Assembly (NCBI GenBank): GCA_016207825.1
Contig: JACQZI010000008.1
Location: 62,001 to 126,000 of the forward strand
Length of the DNA stretch: 64,000 bases
DNA from: Planctomycetota bacterium
GTDB lineage: Bacteria > Planctomycetota > MHYJ01 > JACQXL01 > JACQZI01
Direction of reading: 5' to 3'
Positions 238-61,204 of the stretch are shown piece by piece. Within the stretch, counting starts at the first letter, position 1. Every line of letters starts with the position of its first letter. The notes under the pieces were generated by a model. That model did no database searches, had not been told where the DNA came from, and worked only from the letters and a program-made list of their open reading frames with translations. Position numbers and translations under genes: made by a program.

Positions 238-256
238 AATTCAGCTCCTTTTACAG

Positions 257-686
257 TTTTTAGTTGTTAGTGGTCAGTTGTTAGATTTTTGTAACGAGTT
301 AATAAGTCCTTGAAGCAATTTGCCTATTTCGTCGATTTCATGCTCAAGTATTTCGATTTCGTTATCATTAAAATAATCGAGTTTATGAGATAGTTTTATT
401 ATAGTAACAACCTCGTATTGCGAGCGCAGAGCGATATAGAGAAACTGGATAAATTCTTTCCTGGTTTTACATCCGGAGCCTTCCGCTATATTGAGCGGGA
501 TTGATGTTGCCGCGCGTCTTAACTGGGATGTAATTCCATAGATTTCCTCTTTCGGGAAGTTCTTGGTTTTATCATAAATCTTTACGCAAAATTCCATTGA
601 CTTTTGCCAGACTATTAATTTCTCGAATCTGTAACCCATTTTATTCTCCCTAAAACTAACAACTAATGTCTATATACTAACGACTA
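257..686. repeat. Inverted-repeat-bounded unit around the four-helix-bundle gene
   Basis: TTAGTTGTTAG at 260-270 has an exact inverted copy, CTAACAACTAA, at 656-666. A second, weaker pair lies beside it: TCAGTTGTTAG at 274-284 and CTAACGACTA at 677-686. The four words enclose a complete four-helix-bundle gene; the inner left word overlaps its stop codon and the outer right word overlaps the stop codon of the next gene upstream. A transcript through this unit could close into a stem with the gene in the loop, the layout of 23S rRNA intervening sequences. That reading is inference; the repeats themselves are seen directly. Confidence 0.7.
274..639 (-). CDS. Four helix bundle protein (23S rRNA intervening-sequence/S23 type)
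   Basis: A 121-residue, all-helical protein with the family signature: FEKLIVWQKSMEF near the start, then ITSQLRRAATSIPLNIAEGSG at about 36-56, then RKEFIQFLYIALRSQYEV. This family was first found encoded in intervening sequences of 23S rRNA genes and is related to the Avd proteins of diversity-generating retroelements; its molecular role is uncertain. Here it is not in an rRNA gene but between lemA and its usual DUF3137-type partner, with inverted repeats at both ends. Length is normal and the frame intact. The ATG is preceded by a weak Shine-Dalgarno (GGGAGAATAAA). Confidence 0.9.
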   Translation of the reverse strand: MGYRFEKLIVWQKSMEFCVKIYDKTKNFPKEEIYGITSQLRRAATSIPLNIAEGSGCKTRKEFIQFLYIALRSQYEVVTIIKLSHKLDYFNDNEIEILEHEIDEIGKLLQGLINSLQKSNN

Positions 687-13911: not shown

Positions 13912-14844
13912 TTAATTATGTTCCGCAAATACAGGGATAGTTTTATGGATTACCTCTATATTAATCGGCAAATAGCCGCAGAAGTCTCCATCAACCTGGA
14001 CGGGAACCTTATCCGGGCTGGATATCCGTATTTTCCTGCCGTGATGGTAAGATGAATTCATATTTTTGGTCACATCCCCCCAAAAGGCATCCAAATAATA
14101 CCTGATTATTTCACGCCCGCTTTGGGCTTTGAACCATACGATATCCAGAAGTCCGTCATCTGTCTTAGCTTTTTGGGCGAATACCAGGGGACCGCCATAG
14201 CTCCTTGAATTTGCCACTTGTATAAACGCGGCTTTTTCCGTAATCAGCTTGCCGTCTATTTTCAGTGTTAGCTTGGGGAGTTTATAATACATCGCCGTTT
14301 TTAATGCTATCGGCACGTAACTGGTCGTATGGGGATGGAAATCCGCGCCTTTACGTCTTTTATGATGCTGGTCGGCGACTTCGGCGTCAAAGCCGACACC
14401 TGCCATTGAGATGAATAATCTCGGCTTTTCCTTATCGGAACCGAAATTAATTTTCCCTATATCAAGCATCATTGTTTTCCCGGAGTTTAATAGACAGACG
14501 AATTCTTTAACGTTTGATGTTATTTTTAGTTCCTTGGCGATTACGTTTCCAGAGCCTACCGGTATAATTCCTAAAGGAACGCTGAATTTTATATCGCTTA
14601 GCCCGTTGATAACTTCATTAATGGTGCCGTCTCCGCCGATGCAGACCAGAGCGTCAAATTCGTTTCCTCTTGAAGCGGTTTTACATCCGTCCCCGGCTTT
14701 GGATGTTTCCTTTACGAACGGTTCATAATCAGAGCGTTTTAACTCGGTAAGGAGCCGTTTCAAGAGGAGTTTACCGCGCCCGGCGCCGGCAATGGGATTT
14801 ACGATAATGCCCAGTTTTTTCATAGATGATTCGTAATCTATCAT
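13912..14844 (-). CDS. Diacylglycerol/lipid kinase family protein (YegS/DgkB-like)
   Basis: A 310-residue protein of the diacylglycerol kinase catalytic family. Motifs are GIIVNPIAGAGRGKLLL near the start, the nucleotide-binding VCIGGDGTINEVINGL near 75-90, LGIIPVGSGNVIAKEL near 100-115 and FISMAGVGFDAEVADQ near 160. The C-terminal beta domain ends with VQVDGDFCGYLPINIEV. The substrate (diacylglycerol, undecaprenol or another lipid) cannot be told from sequence. An alternative start, ATG 14823 (MKKLGIIV), would remove seven residues; neither start has a good Shine-Dalgarno. Confidence 0.9.
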   Translation of the reverse strand: MIDYESSMKKLGIIVNPIAGAGRGKLLLKRLLTELKRSDYEPFVKETSKAGDGCKTASRGNEFDALVCIGGDGTINEVINGLSDIKFSVPLGIIPVGSGNVIAKELKITSNVKEFVCLLNSGKTMMLDIGKINFGSDKEKPRLFISMAGVGFDAEVADQHHKRRKGADFHPHTTSYVPIALKTAMYYKLPKLTLKIDGKLITEKAAFIQVANSRSYGGPLVFAQKAKTDDGLLDIVWFKAQSGREIIRYYLDAFWGDVTKNMNSSYHHGRKIRISSPDKVPVQVDGDFCGYLPINIEVIHKTIPVFAEHN

Positions 14845-14872
14845 ATTTGGTAAGAGATTTCAACAAAAATCC

Positions 14873-15151: not shown

Positions 15152-15592
15152 ATGAAAAACAAATGGGTTTTAGTATTACTTGGTATCCTAATCGTATCAG
15201 CTGGTTGTTCATGGTTTAAAAGGGCTCCGTCTAAAATAACCAATGCCGTTACATACCAGGCCGAATCAGGTTCGCTGGACCAGCCGAGTGATATTCCTAT
15301 CCCGGCTAATTTTGCCTATCAGAAATTTGATTCTATTTATTTGGTGGATGGTAATATCCGGACCGGCACGCTTAAATATATAGCTACCGAATTTGTTTCG
15401 ACTTTGGATGTCCTGAAGTTTTACGAGGAAAGAATGCCCAAGTATAAATGGGAAGAAGTCGCCACCGCTACGGCTAACGGCAAGAAAATAAAGGTTTACA
15501 AGCAAGTCTCCGGGGAAGACACCTGCAAAATTTCTATTTATCGCAACGATTACGACAAGTTGGAACTCTTGGTGGAAGTCGGACGCAAATAG
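15152..15592 (+). CDS. Small predicted lipoprotein
   Basis: A 146-residue protein with a lipoprotein signal (MKNKWVLVLLGILIVSAGC; lipidated Cys at 19) and a compact alpha/beta domain. SDIPIPANFAYQKFDSIYL followed by RTGTLKYIATEFVSTLDVLKFYEERMPKYKWEE recalls small lipoproteins in which a strand-helix unit is repeated, but no named family is recognised. AGGAGGT precedes the ATG by four bases. It is transcribed toward the TPR/peptidase gene; the two stop codons are only seven bases apart with no terminator hairpin between them. Confidence 0.75.
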   Translation: MKNKWVLVLLGILIVSAGCSWFKRAPSKITNAVTYQAESGSLDQPSDIPIPANFAYQKFDSIYLVDGNIRTGTLKYIATEFVSTLDVLKFYEERMPKYKWEEVATATANGKKIKVYKQVSGEDTCKISIYRNDYDKLELLVEVGRK

Positions 15593-25074: not shown

Positions 25075-25104
25075 TCCGCCAAAGGCGGATCCGCCTCAGG
25101 CGGA
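25075..25104. repeat. Dispersed palindrome, GGCGGATCCGCC type
   Basis: TCCGCCAAAGGCGGATCCGCC followed by TCAGGCGGA forms two hairpins joined at GGATCC, a near-copy of 1403-1436. Short TTGAAC-type words flank it in opposite orientations on the two sides. It lies between the divergent pyrR and membrane-protein genes. Confidence 0.7.
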
Positions 25105-26375: not shown

Positions 26376-26769
26376 TATGGTAGTATATATAGTAGCCTGG
26401 TTTTAGGCGTTATACTACCTATTGTGGTCGTAAGAATGGATATCCGGCGGGAAATGGAGGCGGGAGAGGTGGAAGACAGAGGCGCATCTCGCGTCCCTAT
26501 GGGACCCCGGGTTGAGGGTAAGGAGAAGGTTAAGCAGGGATATTCTATAGGGGATTAATTATTATGGATAGAGTGAATAAGTGGCAGAGAAGGTGGCCGA
26601 TAAGGAAATAGGATGGGGTGGTAGATGGCAGGGGAGAGTGATTAAACGACTAAGGGTTTAATGGTTTAAGTGCTAATATCTTTATATGGTTAATTTATTA
26701 TCCGATAATAGTTGCAGGAGGTATTGGGAGAGATTAAAATACAGCCACAGATTCACTGATTAATAAAAC

Positions 26770-28198: not shown

Positions 28199-28280
28199 TG
28201 CTAACACGAATCCCACGAATGGAACGAATCTCACAAATAATTCGTTTTATTCGCCATATTCGTGTTATTCGTGTTCTCTT
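28199..28280. repeat. CACGAAT word array in two inverted halves (possible bidirectional terminator)
   Basis: Between two convergent genes, about three ACGAAT-type words read one way (28206-28232) and about four ATTCGT-type words read the other (28240-28275). The halves can pair into a long imperfect stem. The position between converging genes suits a bidirectional terminator; the word texture matches 44220-44300. Confidence 0.5.
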
Positions 28281-28308: not shown

Positions 28309-29943
28309 TCAATCCTTCAGCAATAGTTTCACCACTTCATCCTGGAACTTCCGCGCATTGGAGAGGTCGGAGAAGTTGTTTATTATTATGGAGAAGGCAT
28401 AGTTTTTGTGGTTAGTGATATAACCTGAAAGGGCGGAGACTCCGCTGATATAACCGGTTTTTGCCCAGACGGTTTTGGCCAGCCCTTTGCCGTTAATGCG
28501 GTTTTTCAGGCTTCCGTCATCCCCGTTGGCGGGGAGTGTTTCTATGAAATCTTTACCGTATTTCTGGCTGGCAATATAGCGCAGGAGTTTTACCATCGCG
28601 TCCGGCGTGATTTTATTGCCTCTTGATAATCCGGAACCGTCCACCTGTTCGTAGGTTTTCGTGCTTGTTACGATTTTCTGCCCCAGAAGGAATTTTTCTA
28701 TCTGTGCCGCGCCGCCTTTAAATGAGCCGGAGCTTCTGAAATAAGAGCCGAGTGTTTTCAGTATCTGTTCGGCGTAAAAATTTTGGCTGTTTTTATTGGT
28801 GACCGTTATGGTGGTTAATAAATCCGTCTTGGATGATGCCAACTCTGTCAGGTGATCTGATTTCCGGTTATAGGTTTTATCCGTTAACTTGATTTCGCCA
28901 AGGACAGGGATGGATTTTTTACGGGAAAAAGTTTCCTTTAAGACCGTCCCGAAATAAAGCGGCGGGTTTTCTATGGTGATTGATTCCTTATACGGCTCGG
29001 CATGGATATAAAATCTACCGCTGATAACGATGGTGTTTGTACTTTCTTTCCGGCGCAGACTGACTGCGTGGTTGGAACTGCGCGTCGTTGAACTACAGTC
29101 ATTAATTATTGTTACATAATCGGTATTTGGCTCAAGGCGGTAGGATACCTCATCTTTTTTATCATTATAATAAACCGTGATATCGATGCAGTTGTCGTTA
29201 AAGGAAACCCCGCCAACCGGTGCGCAATACCAGGCGGAAAGCTGGTTTTCCGGCCAGGAGCATACCAGGTATTCGCGGTCAAAGGCAGTGTCGTCAATGA
29301 TGATATTTCCTTCTACCCGGTTGATTCCCAGTTTTTTCAGTATCTTTACCCATTCCTCAAAGACCGCCGTGGAATTGCCGTTATAGAACCTGCCGGAAAT
29401 ATTCGGGTTGCCGTTGCTTTTGACTATCAAGTTCCCTTTGAGCGCACCGTCTATAACCGGCCCCTGGCGGTAAAGGGTGGTTTCGTATTTAAAATCAGGA
29501 CCTAAAAGGCATAAAGCCGCGCCGGTGGTAAACACCTTAAGGTTAGAGGCCGGCATGAGTGGGGTGCCGGAGTTTTTATCACAGATTACCTTATTATCAT
29601 TAAGCGAAACCGCCTTGATTCCTATTTTTGCCTTGGAGAGGTGGTATTTACTTACAAGGCGTGAAATCTTTTCCCCCATTTCGCGGCAGGCGGCGGCATC
29701 GATTGTTTCTTCAGGGTACGGAACGGGTTTTAATTCAGGAGGGAGGTAATTATGGCTGTTTTGTATGCTGATGGGGTTAGCGGCAGAACTAGTATTGTTA
29801 TCCCTTGCGGAAACCGTGATGAATACCAAAAGAGTGCATAGTAAGACCAGGAGAGGAATTATTTTTAGGATTGATGCCTGTCTGCCAAAGAGACTGGGTA
29901 AGGCCTTTTTTATTTCAGGAGCTTGGGTGATTTGGTTATACAT
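28309..29943 (-). CDS. dacB: D-alanyl-D-alanine carboxypeptidase/endopeptidase (PBP4, family S13)
   Basis: A 544-residue class C penicillin-binding protein that trims or cleaves peptidoglycan cross-links. A membrane/signal helix lies at about 27-47 (KIIPLLVLLCTLLVFITVSA). The active-site SxxK is S-N-L-K in PLMPASNLKVFTTGAALCLLG near 128-135; a second motif of the SxN type is expected around SGLSRGN near 440, and KTG is in VWAKTGYISGVSALSGYI near 495. The large insert domain between SxxK and SxN is typical of PBP4. The start overlaps the gpsA end by 34 bases. Confidence 0.93.
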   Translation of the reverse strand: MYNQITQAPEIKKALPSLFGRQASILKIIPLLVLLCTLLVFITVSARDNNTSSAANPISIQNSHNYLPPELKPVPYPEETIDAAACREMGEKISRLVSKYHLSKAKIGIKAVSLNDNKVICDKNSGTPLMPASNLKVFTTGAALCLLGPDFKYETTLYRQGPVIDGALKGNLIVKSNGNPNISGRFYNGNSTAVFEEWVKILKKLGINRVEGNIIIDDTAFDREYLVCSWPENQLSAWYCAPVGGVSFNDNCIDITVYYNDKKDEVSYRLEPNTDYVTIINDCSSTTRSSNHAVSLRRKESTNTIVISGRFYIHAEPYKESITIENPPLYFGTVLKETFSRKKSIPVLGEIKLTDKTYNRKSDHLTELASSKTDLLTTITVTNKNSQNFYAEQILKTLGSYFRSSGSFKGGAAQIEKFLLGQKIVTSTKTYEQVDGSGLSRGNKITPDAMVKLLRYIASQKYGKDFIETLPANGDDGSLKNRINGKGLAKTVWAKTGYISGVSALSGYITNHKNYAFSIIINNFSDLSNARKFQDEVVKLLLKD

Positions 29944-30941
29944 AAGTCCTCGGTCTCGCTTTTCGCACGGCGTCCCATTAAATCGCGAACGGCCTGTTTC
30001 GGGTCTTTACGGCGGAACAGGATATTATAGACTTCCTTTGTTATCGGCATTTCTATTTTGTATTGATTAGACAATTTTATCGCGGCCTTTGTCGTCCAGA
30101 CGCCTTCCGCAACCATCTCCATGGAAGCCATGATTTGCCTGAGTGTTTTGCCCTGCCCGAGTTGCATTCCGACCGCGCGGTTCCTGCCGTGGGGTGAGAC
30201 ACAGGTGGTGATGAGGTCGCCCAGCCCGGAAAGGCCGAAGAATGTGTTTTGATGCGCGCCCATGGCTTTGCCAAGCCGTGCGATTTCAGCCAGCCCGCGG
30301 GTTAAAAGAGCTGATTTGGTGTTGTCGCCCAGCTTCAGCCCGTCGCAGATGCCGGCGGCAATGGCGATGATATTCTTTATAGCGCCGCCCAGTTCCACTC
30401 CCGTAATATCCGAATGGGTATAAGGGCGGAAATGGCTGTTCATAAATGCGGATTGCGCCATTTTTGCCAGTTCCATATTCTTAGAGGCAATGACCACGCT
30501 TGCCGGGAGGCCGCGGCTGACTTCTTCCGCGTGGCTGGGGCCGGAAAGGACAGCAATTTTATCCGTTCCCAATACTTCCGTTATTATCTCACTTGGGCGT
30601 TTAAGCGTTCCCATTTCCAACCCTTTGGCTACGGAGACGATGGGGATGGTAGATTTTAGATTGTAGATTTTAGTTTTTAGTTTGGATAAAACCGAGCGCG
30701 AGTATTGGGTGGGAATAGCCATGACCACCAGGTTACAGGTTATAAGTTGTAAGTTAGAGGTTATTTTGATAGAAGAGGGGAGTTTGATGCCGGGGAGGAA
30801 TTTCGTGTTTTCCCGTTTCTTTGCCATAAGGCGGGCGTAATCAGGGAAATTGCTCCAGAGCGTTACGTTATGCCCGTTCTTATCCAGGAGCAGAGCTATC
30901 GCCGTTCCCCAGCCGCCGTCGCCTAAAACTAATATGTTCAT
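29910..30941 (-). CDS. gpsA: Glycerol-3-phosphate dehydrogenase [NAD(P)+], with word-repeat coding segments
   Basis: A 343-residue enzyme that makes sn-glycerol 3-phosphate for phospholipids. The Rossmann motif VLGDGGWGTAIALLL (5-19), the substrate region SVAKGLEMGTLKRPSEII near 103, VLSGPSHAEEVSRGLPASVVIAS near 135, GAIKNIIAIAAGICDGL near 190 and TRGLAEIARLG/GLSGLGDLITTCVSPHGRNRAVG are intact. Two loops, residues 61-70 (TSNLQLITCN) and 88-99 (LKTKIYNLKSTI), are encoded by repetitive word arrays like those seen in spacers. It precedes dacB and follows plsY, as part of a lipid/envelope cluster. Confidence 0.96.
   Translation of the reverse strand: MNILVLGDGGWGTAIALLLDKNGHNVTLWSNFPDYARLMAKKRENTKFLPGIKLPSSIKITSNLQLITCNLVVMAIPTQYSRSVLSKLKTKIYNLKSTIPIVSVAKGLEMGTLKRPSEIITEVLGTDKIAVLSGPSHAEEVSRGLPASVVIASKNMELAKMAQSAFMNSHFRPYTHSDITGVELGGAIKNIIAIAAGICDGLKLGDNTKSALLTRGLAEIARLGKAMGAHQNTFFGLSGLGDLITTCVSPHGRNRAVGMQLGQGKTLRQIMASMEMVAEGVWTTKAAIKLSNQYKIEMPITKEVYNILFRRKDPKQAVRDLMGRRAKSETEDLCITKSPKLLK
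30648..30762. repeat. Two word arrays inside the gpsA coding sequence
   Basis: At 30649-30684 the plus strand reads variants of TAGATTTTAGATTG and TAGTTTTTAGTTT; at 30731-30762 it reads variants of GGTTACAGGTTATAAGTTG. Both are runs of degenerate 7-9 base words starting with a G/A-TT-rich core. They encode short surface loops of GpsA and leave the frame open. Confidence 0.65.
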
Positions 30942-30946
30942 AACAA

Positions 30947-30998
30947 TAGTTCAATGGTTCAAATGTTCAACAGTTCAATAGTTTCCGCCTTTGGCGGA
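30947..30998. repeat. GTTCAA word array with a GGCGGA palindrome
   Basis: Four GTTCAA words spaced by 8-10 bases (30954-30979) are followed by TCCGCCTTTGGCGGA (30984-30998). The block fills the spacer between plsY and gpsA. Confidence 0.6.
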
Positions 30999-59785: not shown

Positions 59786-61204
59786 ATGAAGTATGTTGTG
59801 CTGATATGCGGTATGGTGTTATTGATTGCATCTTGTCAGACGGAGAAACCAGTAGCCAGGGAAGATCAAAACCCCTCGATACCCGCTACTCAATACTCGC
59901 TACTAATTTCCCAGCTCGGTGGCGATGATTGGGAAACACGGGAATCCGCTCAAAAGAAACTGGAAGACTGGCCCGCAGACACAATAGGCGAAATAGAACC
60001 GGCCGTTAAAGAAGCCGCAGAAAGCAATGACCCGGAAACCCGTACCCGTGCCATCCGTATTTATGACATAATTAAAATCAGAAAGCGGGTAAAGTTCTCC
60101 GATAGTTTCTTGAAGGAATTCCCTGATATCTACCGCGATTTAACTAAACTTGACGCAAGCGGCAGGTTTGGATGCCTTCAAAAGATTACTGGCACAAATC
60201 AAAAAGACATGTTTGAACCCATTAAATTTATATATAAAGATAAAGTATTAAACACTGATATTGCCGGTTTGATTGGCGAGATTATCCAAGATAATATTAA
60301 AGGAGTATCCGACAAACAGAAACAAATTATTCTCTCTATAGTTAGCGGTGAACTGTATCATGACCCGCTGTCTTCCAGCACGGATATTGAAGGAGGATGG
60401 TGCGATATCATCCCGGAAGCTGCTCCATACGTCATAAAACTTCTAAAAGATGATAACTATGTTTGCGCAAAAGCTGCGGAAGCTCTTGGAAAACTTGGGG
60501 CGAAAGAAGCTATTCCTAGAATAAAGGAACTTATGAACCGTCAAAATGAATATGTCCATATGTGCGCTGTCGTGGCTCTTGGCCGCCTTGGCGCCAAAGA
60601 AATTATTCCCGATTTAATGAAATTCTTAAAGTCCGGATACGTTCGCGGTTCAGTCGCTCAAGCCCTTGGTTATTTAGGAGTAAAAGAAGCCATACCTGAT
60701 ATAATAAAGCTCCTAAAGGATGGTGCTTGGGATGTTCGGTGGTCTGCGGTTAGCGCTCTTGGATTACTTAACGCTAAAGAATCTGTTCCCGAGATAATAA
60801 AACTCTTGGAAGACGAGCATCATGATGTTCGCCAGTGCGCTGTGAAAACGCTTGAGCAACTCGGCGACAAAGAAATTATTCCTGCAATGAGAAAATTATT
60901 AAATGACAAAGACCTGTATATGATAGGCTATGCTGTTATGACTCTTGCTAAGCTGGGAGATAAAGAATCAATCACAAAAATAATAAGGCTAATGGGATTT
61001 AATTATCCTGGTTATGGCGGACTTAGAGGGCTTTTTGCTATTGCACTCGTCGAGCTTGGCGCAAAGGATAAGGTAACCCAGGATATAGTAGATGATATTA
61101 ATATCATCGCGGTAAATTGGCATGATGGTTACAAATCCCGCGCCCGCGCCGCGCTAAAGGAATTAGGCGTTTCCGATGAAGAAATAGAAAAGGCGAAGGA
61201 ATGA
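59786..61204 (+). CDS. HEAT-repeat lipoprotein
   Basis: A 472-residue predicted lipoprotein (MKYVVLICGMVLLIASC; lipobox IASC). A linker (REDQNPSIPATQYSLL) encoded by CTCGATACC/CGCTACTCAA words leads to a helical module (ISQLGGDDWETRESAQKKLEDWP...SNDPETRTRAIRIYDI) also found in the TolB-like protein at 22716-23363. About eight HEAT repeats of 31 residues follow (AAPYVIKLLKDDNYVCAKAAEALGKLGAKEAIPRIKELM). It is probably a scaffold; no enzyme motif is seen. A strong promoter sets ATG 59786 as start with almost no leader. Confidence 0.85.
   Translation: MKYVVLICGMVLLIASCQTEKPVAREDQNPSIPATQYSLLISQLGGDDWETRESAQKKLEDWPADTIGEIEPAVKEAAESNDPETRTRAIRIYDIIKIRKRVKFSDSFLKEFPDIYRDLTKLDASGRFGCLQKITGTNQKDMFEPIKFIYKDKVLNTDIAGLIGEIIQDNIKGVSDKQKQIILSIVSGELYHDPLSSSTDIEGGWCDIIPEAAPYVIKLLKDDNYVCAKAAEALGKLGAKEAIPRIKELMNRQNEYVHMCAVVALGRLGAKEIIPDLMKFLKSGYVRGSVAQALGYLGVKEAIPDIIKLLKDGAWDVRWSAVSALGLLNAKESVPEIIKLLEDEHHDVRQCAVKTLEQLGDKEIIPAMRKLLNDKDLYMIGYAVMTLAKLGDKESITKIIRLMGFNYPGYGGLRGLFAIALVELGAKDKVTQDIVDDINIIAVNWHDGYKSRARAALKELGVSDEEIEKAKE

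Follow-up and report, generated by a model that had tools for sequence, protein, structure and literature searches.

The window, i.e., the whole 64-kb stretch of DNA analysed here, belongs to G000, a planctomycete MAG of 2.9 Mb that is 97.6% complete. It carries gpsA, the gene for NAD-dependent glycerol-3-phosphate dehydrogenase, two sites of which are spelled in degenerate tandem 7-mers. Further arrays of short words lie directly upstream of gpsA, in the gene for a HEAT-repeat lipoprotein and on the flanks of a gene for an S23 (23S rRNA-intervening sequence) protein. The features of the window are as follows.

250-289, minus strand: downstream arm of the S23 element, 7-mers CTAACAACTGACCACTAACAACTAAAAACT (lag-7 score 15)
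274-639, minus strand: S23 / 23S rRNA-intervening sequence protein gene, 121 aa (ORF also given as 277-639; PF05635, 134.8 bits)
652-685, minus strand: upstream arm of the S23 element, GTCGTTAGTATATAGACATTAGTTGTTAGTTTTA, with TTAGTTGTTAGT in common with the reverse complement of the downstream arm
26640-26691, no strand: weak 8-mer run (score 11)
28205-28274, no strand: intergenic 9-mer word hairpin CACGAATCC ... ATTCGTGTT (lag-9 score 20)
29910-30941, minus strand: gpsA, NAD-dependent glycerol-3-phosphate dehydrogenase, 343 aa (ORF; Pfam PF01210, PF07479, PF20618)
30645-30683, minus strand: gpsA site 2, 7-mer array AAACTAAAAACTAAAATCTACAATCTAAAATCTACC in gene sense (lag-7 score 22)
30729-30763, minus strand: gpsA site 1, 7-mer array TAACCTC TAACTTA CAACTTA TAACCTG TAACCTG in gene sense (lag-7 score 16)
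30944-30983, minus strand: intergenic 8-mer array of the AACTATTG/AACATTTG type, ending just before the gpsA start codon (lag-8 score 20)
30984-30998, no strand: 15-bp palindrome TCCGCCTTTGGCGGA adjoining the 8-mer array (sequence reading; Tandem Repeats Finder rows)
59873-59906, plus strand: run of 7/14-mers coding for part of the HEAT-repeat lipoprotein, in its N-terminal linker (Tandem Repeats Finder rows)

The nearest named relatives of this gpsA are those of Planctomycetota bacterium Yes70-35 and Candidatus Brocadiia DeMMO4_16 (67-68%), and PDB 1z82 is the best structural-database relative of the protein. Tandem Repeats Finder assigns period 7 to 30650-30680 and 30739-30764 within gpsA, and period 8 to 30944-30983 upstream of it. 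The original prediction placed both coding stretches and the upstream array correctly, although the mixture of 7-9-nucleotide words that it proposed resolves into a unit of 7 in gpsA and of 8 upstream. None of 2000 synonymous recodings reaches the observed score at either gpsA site. Three lag-7 segments of the window score at least 14, two of them within gpsA and the third (250-289) flanking the S23 gene, against an average of 0.0 in ten dinucleotide shuffles; at a score of at least 12, the ten shuffles average 0.1 lag-7 and 0.1 lag-8 segments. Over-representation of the words was expected from the prediction, and it is found: the arrays are far above chance and exceed both the dinucleotide and the synonymous-codon shuffles.

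In the AlphaFold model of GpsA (mean pLDDT 91), site 1 (about aa 60-71) falls mainly in the loop that joins strands 59-61 and 71-74. Site 2 (about aa 87-99) takes in the last part of helix 78-91 together with a loop and a short helix, 95-98. The claim that the arrays encode surface loops is nearly right. Formation of RNA hairpins by the gpsA arrays was considered and ruled out, the fold z-score of the two sites being 0.12. No S23 gene is present among the ORF calls of the gpsA locus. The gpsA arrays are arm-like and are not S23 elements themselves.

The run in the HEAT lipoprotein, put forward earlier as a third coding case, is detected by Tandem Repeats Finder at 59875-59904 (periods 14/7); its score is attained in 14 of 2000 synonymous recodings, so that it is real but weaker than the gpsA arrays. 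The intergenic 9-mer hairpin at 28205-28274 (ATTCGTG type) folds strongly (z-score -7.07) and has no S23 gene inside. The 15-bp palindrome, TCCGCC(AAA/ATA)GGCGGA, is dispersed and occurs twice in tandem, with window copies at 1405-1434, 25075-25104 and 30984-30998, and with copies beyond the window in L139 (18375-18419), L191 (10804-10838) and L097 (19839-19869).

Arrays in gpsA orthologs and across genomes

Eight gpsA genes of the order were compared in a codon alignment. Lag-7 arrays are present at both sites in G000, G005, G006 and G007 and at site 1 only in G004, whereas G002, G003 and G008 have an array at neither site. Outside the two sites, none of the eight genes has a lag-7 segment above score 8. 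The five array-bearing orthologs thus use the same site or sites with different words; at site 2 these are ATCTAAA/ATCTACA in G000, ATTCCGC in G005, ATTCGCA in G006 and ATCTCGT in G007. Between G000 and G005, 29-31% of the site residues are identical, compared with 66% for the whole protein. Synonymous recodings reach the scores of G005 site 2, G007 site 2 and G006 site 1 in 7 to 13 of 2000 cases. As to the proposed check of whether words and loop lengths vary between strains, the words differ among these relatives, but site 2 has the same length in four genomes, and only G004, with five extra residues at site 1 and a shorter site 2, differs at both sites. The loop residues differ between orthologs instead of being identical. 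The arrays occur in families f1 and f3 and are missing from f2 and f4, and this distribution suggests that one old origin followed by word changes is more probable than independent origins.

Arrays of this kind are frequent far beyond gpsA. In about 1.16 Mb of G000, 63 lag-7 and 42 lag-8 segments score at least 12, against 2 and 1 in the shuffle; after masking of N runs, 61 lag-7 and 41 lag-8 arrays remain in G000, and 58 and 17 are found in 1.0 Mb of G005, which belongs to another family. Lags 7, 8 and their multiples are in excess in both genomes, and lag 9 also within coding sequence, while in G000 lags 5, 10, 11 and 13 stay at the background level. In a small control of 50 kb of E. coli K-12, no lag-7 or lag-8 array reaches score 12. 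With ORFs called by a simple longest-ORF rule, which makes coding fractions approximate, 34/61 lag-7 arrays of G000 and 33/58 of G005 lie within ORFs, as do 8/41 and 6/17 lag-8 arrays. In these samples, 7-mer arrays are mostly inside and 8-mer arrays mostly outside ORFs. ORFs make up 87-89% of the samples (89% in G000), so that arrays are depleted in genes yet common there; the view that repeats of this texture usually lie between genes is right in terms of density, but counting the lag-7 arrays of G000 does not bear it out. By Pfam, the array-bearing genes include those for leucyl-tRNA synthetase, RlmN, a tRNA methyltransferase-type (MnmA-like) protein, semialdehyde dehydrogenase and class-III aminotransferase, among others.

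Coding arrays are located at fast-changing, indel-prone places. At least 30% of the residues are missing from the ortholog in 11/28 coding arrays, compared with 76/1513 control windows, and residue identity to the ortholog is 0.23 at the arrays and 0.50 in the controls; the 28 are the usable cases, arrays without a spanning ortholog alignment having been left out. This result and the different words at orthologous gpsA sites support the idea that a process making or copying short words acts on genes as well as spacers, at places where the protein varies; the original interpretation as a whole is partly supported. Differences among units are spread evenly over the bases, with variant fractions of 0.194 for A, 0.200 for C, 0.199 for G and 0.177 for T. 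In rlmN, the arrays of G000 and of the same-genus G001 are equal in length and align without gaps between well-conserved flanks, with partly different words.

The words form genome-specific dialects. Two words were regarded as matching when their consensus agreed within one mismatch, in any rotation and on either strand. On this basis, 11.7% of 7-mer array pairs within G000 and 8.4% within G005 have a common word, against 2.0% between the two genomes, and the within-genome sharing is reached by 0/2000 label permutations for 7-mers and 3/2000 for 8-mers. Letter-shuffled words give 3.5% within G000, 2.3% within G005 and 1.8% between them; since sharing among real words is higher, composition does not explain the dialects. 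The gpsA words follow the dialect of their own genome: those of the two G000 sites match 12/60 and 8/60 other G000 arrays, compared with 0/58 and 1/58 in G005, and those of the G005 sites match 3/57 and 2/57 G005 arrays, compared with 0/61 and 0/61 in G000. In the aminotransferase, the third same-site pair, the G000 word matches 9/60 of its own and 3/58 of the other arrays, while the G005 word breaks the rule (0/57 own, 2/61 other). A unit of specifically 7 or 8, genome-specific words and the inverted S23/IVP arms described below go beyond the original prediction.

Inverted, complementary arms of S23 genes

The main discovery lies outside the gpsA coordinates: S23 genes of many bacteria stand between complementary 7/8-mer arrays. 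Inverted array pairs about 400-460 bp apart enclose an S23 gene in all five of the pairs first opened. The S23 gene of the window matches PF05635 with 134.8 bits against a cut-off of 33.8 (G000:C8:62307-62624) and bAvd with 33.1 bits, under the cut-off of 40; its protein has PDB 2gsc and 2rld as relatives, in both of which the number of chains indicates a pentamer. It lies between same-strand ORFs and not in rRNA. G000 has 14 PF05635 matches, none of them on contig C4, where the only 23S gene found in this genome is located. The 23S rRNA match (G000:C4:15377-18409) covers 3033 bases for 2925 model positions and may hold a small insert. Each of eight other genomes of the order has 2-15 PF05635 matches, and the 14 control genomes have none.

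The sampled sequence contains nine S23 genes. An array scoring at least 12 is found on at least one flank in 9/9, arrays scoring at least 10 on both flanks in 8/9, and complementarity above 100 shuffles in 8/9. The window gene is the exception on both of the latter counts: the motif TTAGTTGTTAGT occurs in its upstream arm and in the reverse complement of its downstream arm, but its arm score of 14 is exceeded by the best of 100 shuffles (15), and the fold z-score of the element, the weakest of the nine, is -0.29. With stricter ORF borders, arrays scoring at least 10 occupy both flanks in 7/9 S23 genes and in 6/1683 other ORFs; among other ORFs of 90-200 aa, the number is 0/460.

The same arrangement is found in other phyla. 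S23 matches occur in 33 plasmid records, and 12 of these, from Cyanobacteriota, Bacteroidota, Alphaproteobacteria and Gemmatimonadota, were examined; an array scoring at least 12 lies on at least one flank in 12/12, arrays scoring at least 10 lie on both in 10/12, and the flanks are complementary beyond 200 shuffles in 10/12. L232 (Pseudanabaena) and L236 (Oscillatoria) have long arrays on both sides of S23 that are not complementary. Viral contigs provided 31 S23 loci, 23 of which are distinct after dropping 8 near-copies; arrays scoring at least 10 are on both flanks in 15/23, against 0/373 control windows, and complementarity exceeds 100 shuffles in 19/23. Because real arrays close to the S23 gene may fall within these control windows, the control is conservative for 'either flank', and the 1683-ORF and 373-window controls differ slightly in the definition of flanks. 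Lags 6-10 were scanned for the nine sampled and the plasmid loci, and lags 7-8 for the ORF and viral-contig tests. In all, 37/44 S23 loci have flanks whose complementarity exceeds that of each shuffle. S23 genes in several phyla are thus shown to be flanked by inverted, complementary 7/8-mer arms.

Set against the fixed terminal inverted repeats of IS and MITE elements, the arms share the inversion, but the words vary among the elements. A setting of the unit length, 7 or 8, by the clade of the S23 protein is not supported (the tree has 4 changes, compared with a mean of 5.3 in shuffles; 64/500 shuffles as low). ORFs adjoining S23 are co-directional with it wherever both are called; the exception is one flank of L190, whose purE-like gene on the S23 strand escaped the simple ORF rule. 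The L190 element, which precedes this gene, corresponds to a 454-bp gap in the same-genus G001; at this empty site, the only one read, neither an array nor a target-site duplication is evident. L185, in G005, is the sister of L190 in the S23 phylogeny (100/100), and the two have the word AGCTTAG in common. From the translations, the gene that follows L190 is read as purE-like and the genes on either side of L185 as mraY-like and ftsW-like. The same word in different operons is as expected of an element that moves with its arms.

Of the 80 gpsA loci, 50 were typed by genome, and PF05635 was found in 13 of these 50 genomes. By eye, lag-7 arrays are seen in the loci of 5/13 PF05635-positive and 2/37 other genomes; the five include L003 and L004, which come from the same order and hold the gpsA arrays themselves, and the comparison is given no weight here. 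Identical sequences met twice (L003/L004 and L083/L084) were counted once for each pair. The genome of L048 (G054, Desulfatiglandales) matches PF05635 24 times, internal stops interrupting several of the matches, and lends itself to the study of decaying elements; L048 itself has a lag-7 array, intergenic or coding, of score 31.

Origin of the gpsA arrays

The gpsA arrays may be solo members of the 7-/8-mer class that entered via the activity of S23 elements and were then re-spelled, a reading to which we give about even chances. The best-defined members of the class are the paired inverted arms of S23/IVP elements, which consist of an arm, the S23 gene and the reverse-complement arm, about 450 bp in total and co-directional with the host operon. 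Such elements would spread at the DNA level, carrying or creating word arrays, and arms or arm fragments might persist as solo arrays. Paired arms in RNA may form a stem cleavable by RNase III, by analogy with the intervening sequences of 23S rRNA, so that an operon could tolerate the insertion; a coding array, having no partner arm, would act only as a tolerated filler peptide. For gpsA, S23-element activity in the ancestor shared by f1 and f3 may have brought array DNA into the two loop-coding sites, either through insertion of arm DNA or because an element was lost while one of its arms stayed. Selection would have kept the frame and nearly kept the length, only in-frame cases at tolerant loops surviving. 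Slipped-strand copying within the array, together with copying from arrays of the same genome, could account for the turnover by which each genome re-spelled its arrays in its own dialect.

An S23 origin of the gpsA arrays is what we infer, and it is weakest where solo arrays are derived from S23 arms, since such arms make up only 17 of the 175 merged array loci. Of the other 158, 80 are coding, and an inverted partner is nearby in 6/80 coding and 28/78 noncoding non-S23 loci. The gene for a trypsin-like protein (L143) contains two in-frame word hairpins, each an array with its reverse complement (14797-14863 and 15324-15389; z about -3 each). In G000, 26/54 solo words are similar to its own S23 arms, a number above the letter-shuffle mean (11.3) but below the maximum (32), and the solo words of G005 are nearer to the arms of G000 (14/55) than to its own (8/55).

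The arrays could instead be plain minisatellites, i.e., chance short repeats that grow and drift by slipped-strand copying with no element involved, the S23 arms being kept by selection on the stem and the dialects reflecting mutation or codon bias. That most arrays do not adjoin S23, that unit variation is even over the four bases as from ordinary mutation, and that the rlmN arrays align gaplessly with partly changed words all fit such repeats. Slippage alone, however, does not produce inverted arms; it also leaves the restriction to lags 7 and 8 (9 in coding sequence, and multiples) over a background at other lags, the excess of the dialects over letter-shuffled words and the frequent absence of coding arrays from the ortholog, as of insertions, to be accounted for. 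We therefore regard minisatellites as a possible explanation that is probably not the right one. If the repeats simply followed from chance or from the amino acids, the small numbers of recodings that match in G005, G006 and G007 would allow this a minor contribution, but the zero counts at both sites already refute it for G000, and five genomes use different residues and words at the same sites; the chance that this is the explanation seems close to negligible.

Two further readings concern the role of the arrays. Were they older landing pads into which S23 genes insert, non-complementary arrays on both sides would be expected after insertion into a direct array, and the Pseudanabaena and Oscillatoria loci (2/12 on plasmids) have this form. 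Insertion into one array predicts direct flanks, though, in contrast to the complementary flanks of 37/44 loci, and the sole empty site read has no array, so landing pads appear improbable. Regulatory or protein-binding sites under selection, as proposed for the TAACTGA repeats of Beggiatoaceae, would suit the 8-mer array directly preceding the gpsA start and the repeats of such kind near start codons that are reported in the accessible text on Beggiatoaceae (PMC4679880). A fixed binding site, by contrast, excludes words that vary among loci of one genome and among orthologs, and many arrays are deep in genes (leucyl-tRNA synthetase, rlmN and mnmA-like by Pfam names); we consider this reading very improbable. 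Entry via S23 elements with later re-spelling is the reading carried forward here.

Copying in the manner of diversity-generating retroelements (DGRs) or group II introns is also unlikely, because a reverse transcriptase is missing from G000 and variation favours none of the bases. PF00078 is matched in 1/9 genomes of the order (G001), but neither in G000 nor in any of the four that are at least 90% complete; mobility by reverse transcriptase was ruled out on these absences, and adenine mutagenesis as in DGRs on the even variation. The S23 family is related to DGRs through its resemblance to their Avd protein, as far as the available text describes it (PMC10053308), and variation within genes is a further likeness; absence of a reverse transcriptase and of adenine-biased variation sets G000 apart from them.

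Relation to known repeats

Cyanobacterial STRRs are short tandem heptanucleotide repeats scattered over the genome. The arrays of G000 are likewise tandem degenerate 7-mers found genome-wide, with 61 lag-7 arrays in 1.16 Mb against 2 in shuffles, but they include 8-mers and coding sites and their host belongs to Planctomycetota. Among the open-access records found on STRRs, no link to S23 is apparent. S23 genes on Nostocales plasmids carry 7-mer arms. In the stem of the P6b region of the Nostoc tRNA-Leu intron, degenerate 7-mers fall into the classes TDNGATT and NNTGAGT, one class having repeatedly been replaced by another between lineages, according to the part of the report available (PMC4476775). 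Word replacement at one site thus resembles that in gpsA, although it concerns a cyanobacterial intron stem-loop there and stemless protein-coding sites of Planctomycetota here.

The closest counterpart of the S23 elements in the accessible text is the 23S intervening sequence (IVS) of Coxiella burnetii, which contains an S23 gene within about 430-450 bp, has complementary borders and is excised by RNase III; tandem heptamers (GACAGAT) with strain-variable copy number precede the gene, and the authors call the role, origin and spread of S23 intervening sequences unclear (PMC4990558). As far as that text goes, the S23 gene, the size, the complementary borders and the heptamers are alike, whereas the present elements stand between protein genes, number up to 14-15 in a genome, each with its own word, are accompanied by solo arrays inside protein genes, and are known from DNA. 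Beyond this single 23S IVS, a link of S23 genes outside rRNA with word arrays was not found in the open-access literature searched. In Beggiatoaceae, the available text describes direct TAACTGA repeats as tandem heptamers, mostly intergenic, among them repeats upstream of start codons, with some in genes such as murG, and with no known mechanism; the terms 'S23' and 'four helix' are absent from it (PMC4679880). One fixed word per genome is used there, in contrast to the many related words per genome found here.

We tentatively extend the proposal, in a form that we think somewhat more apt to fail than to hold. S23/IVP genes may mark widespread, unrecognised small mobile elements that end in degenerate 7-/8-mer arrays in place of fixed sequences, and the same machinery might write solo arrays into spacers and also, with the frame kept, into genes like gpsA, re-spelling them in the dialect of the genome; a single process would then have left its traces in STRRs, in the Nostoc P6b and Coxiella IVS heptamers and in the repeats of Beggiatoaceae. 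Tandem heptamers have been described in several phyla with no mechanism given in the accessible text (PMC4679880). If the arms are a hallmark of S23 elements, the role and spread of S23 and the mechanism of the heptamers become testable in the same strains, as do the need of S23 for gain of arrays, the movement of elements whose ends vary between copies, and the uptake of new peptide segments by basic genes (gpsA, rlmN). For annotation, complementary 7/8-mer arrays adjoining a 'four helix bundle protein' could then serve as a practical rule. S23 with word arms also occurs inside plasmid CRISPR operons three times (L226, L232, L234), in the order cas6-S23-cas4 in Anabaena sp. 90 and Pseudanabaena galeata and cas10-S23-cmr3 in Picosynechococcus.
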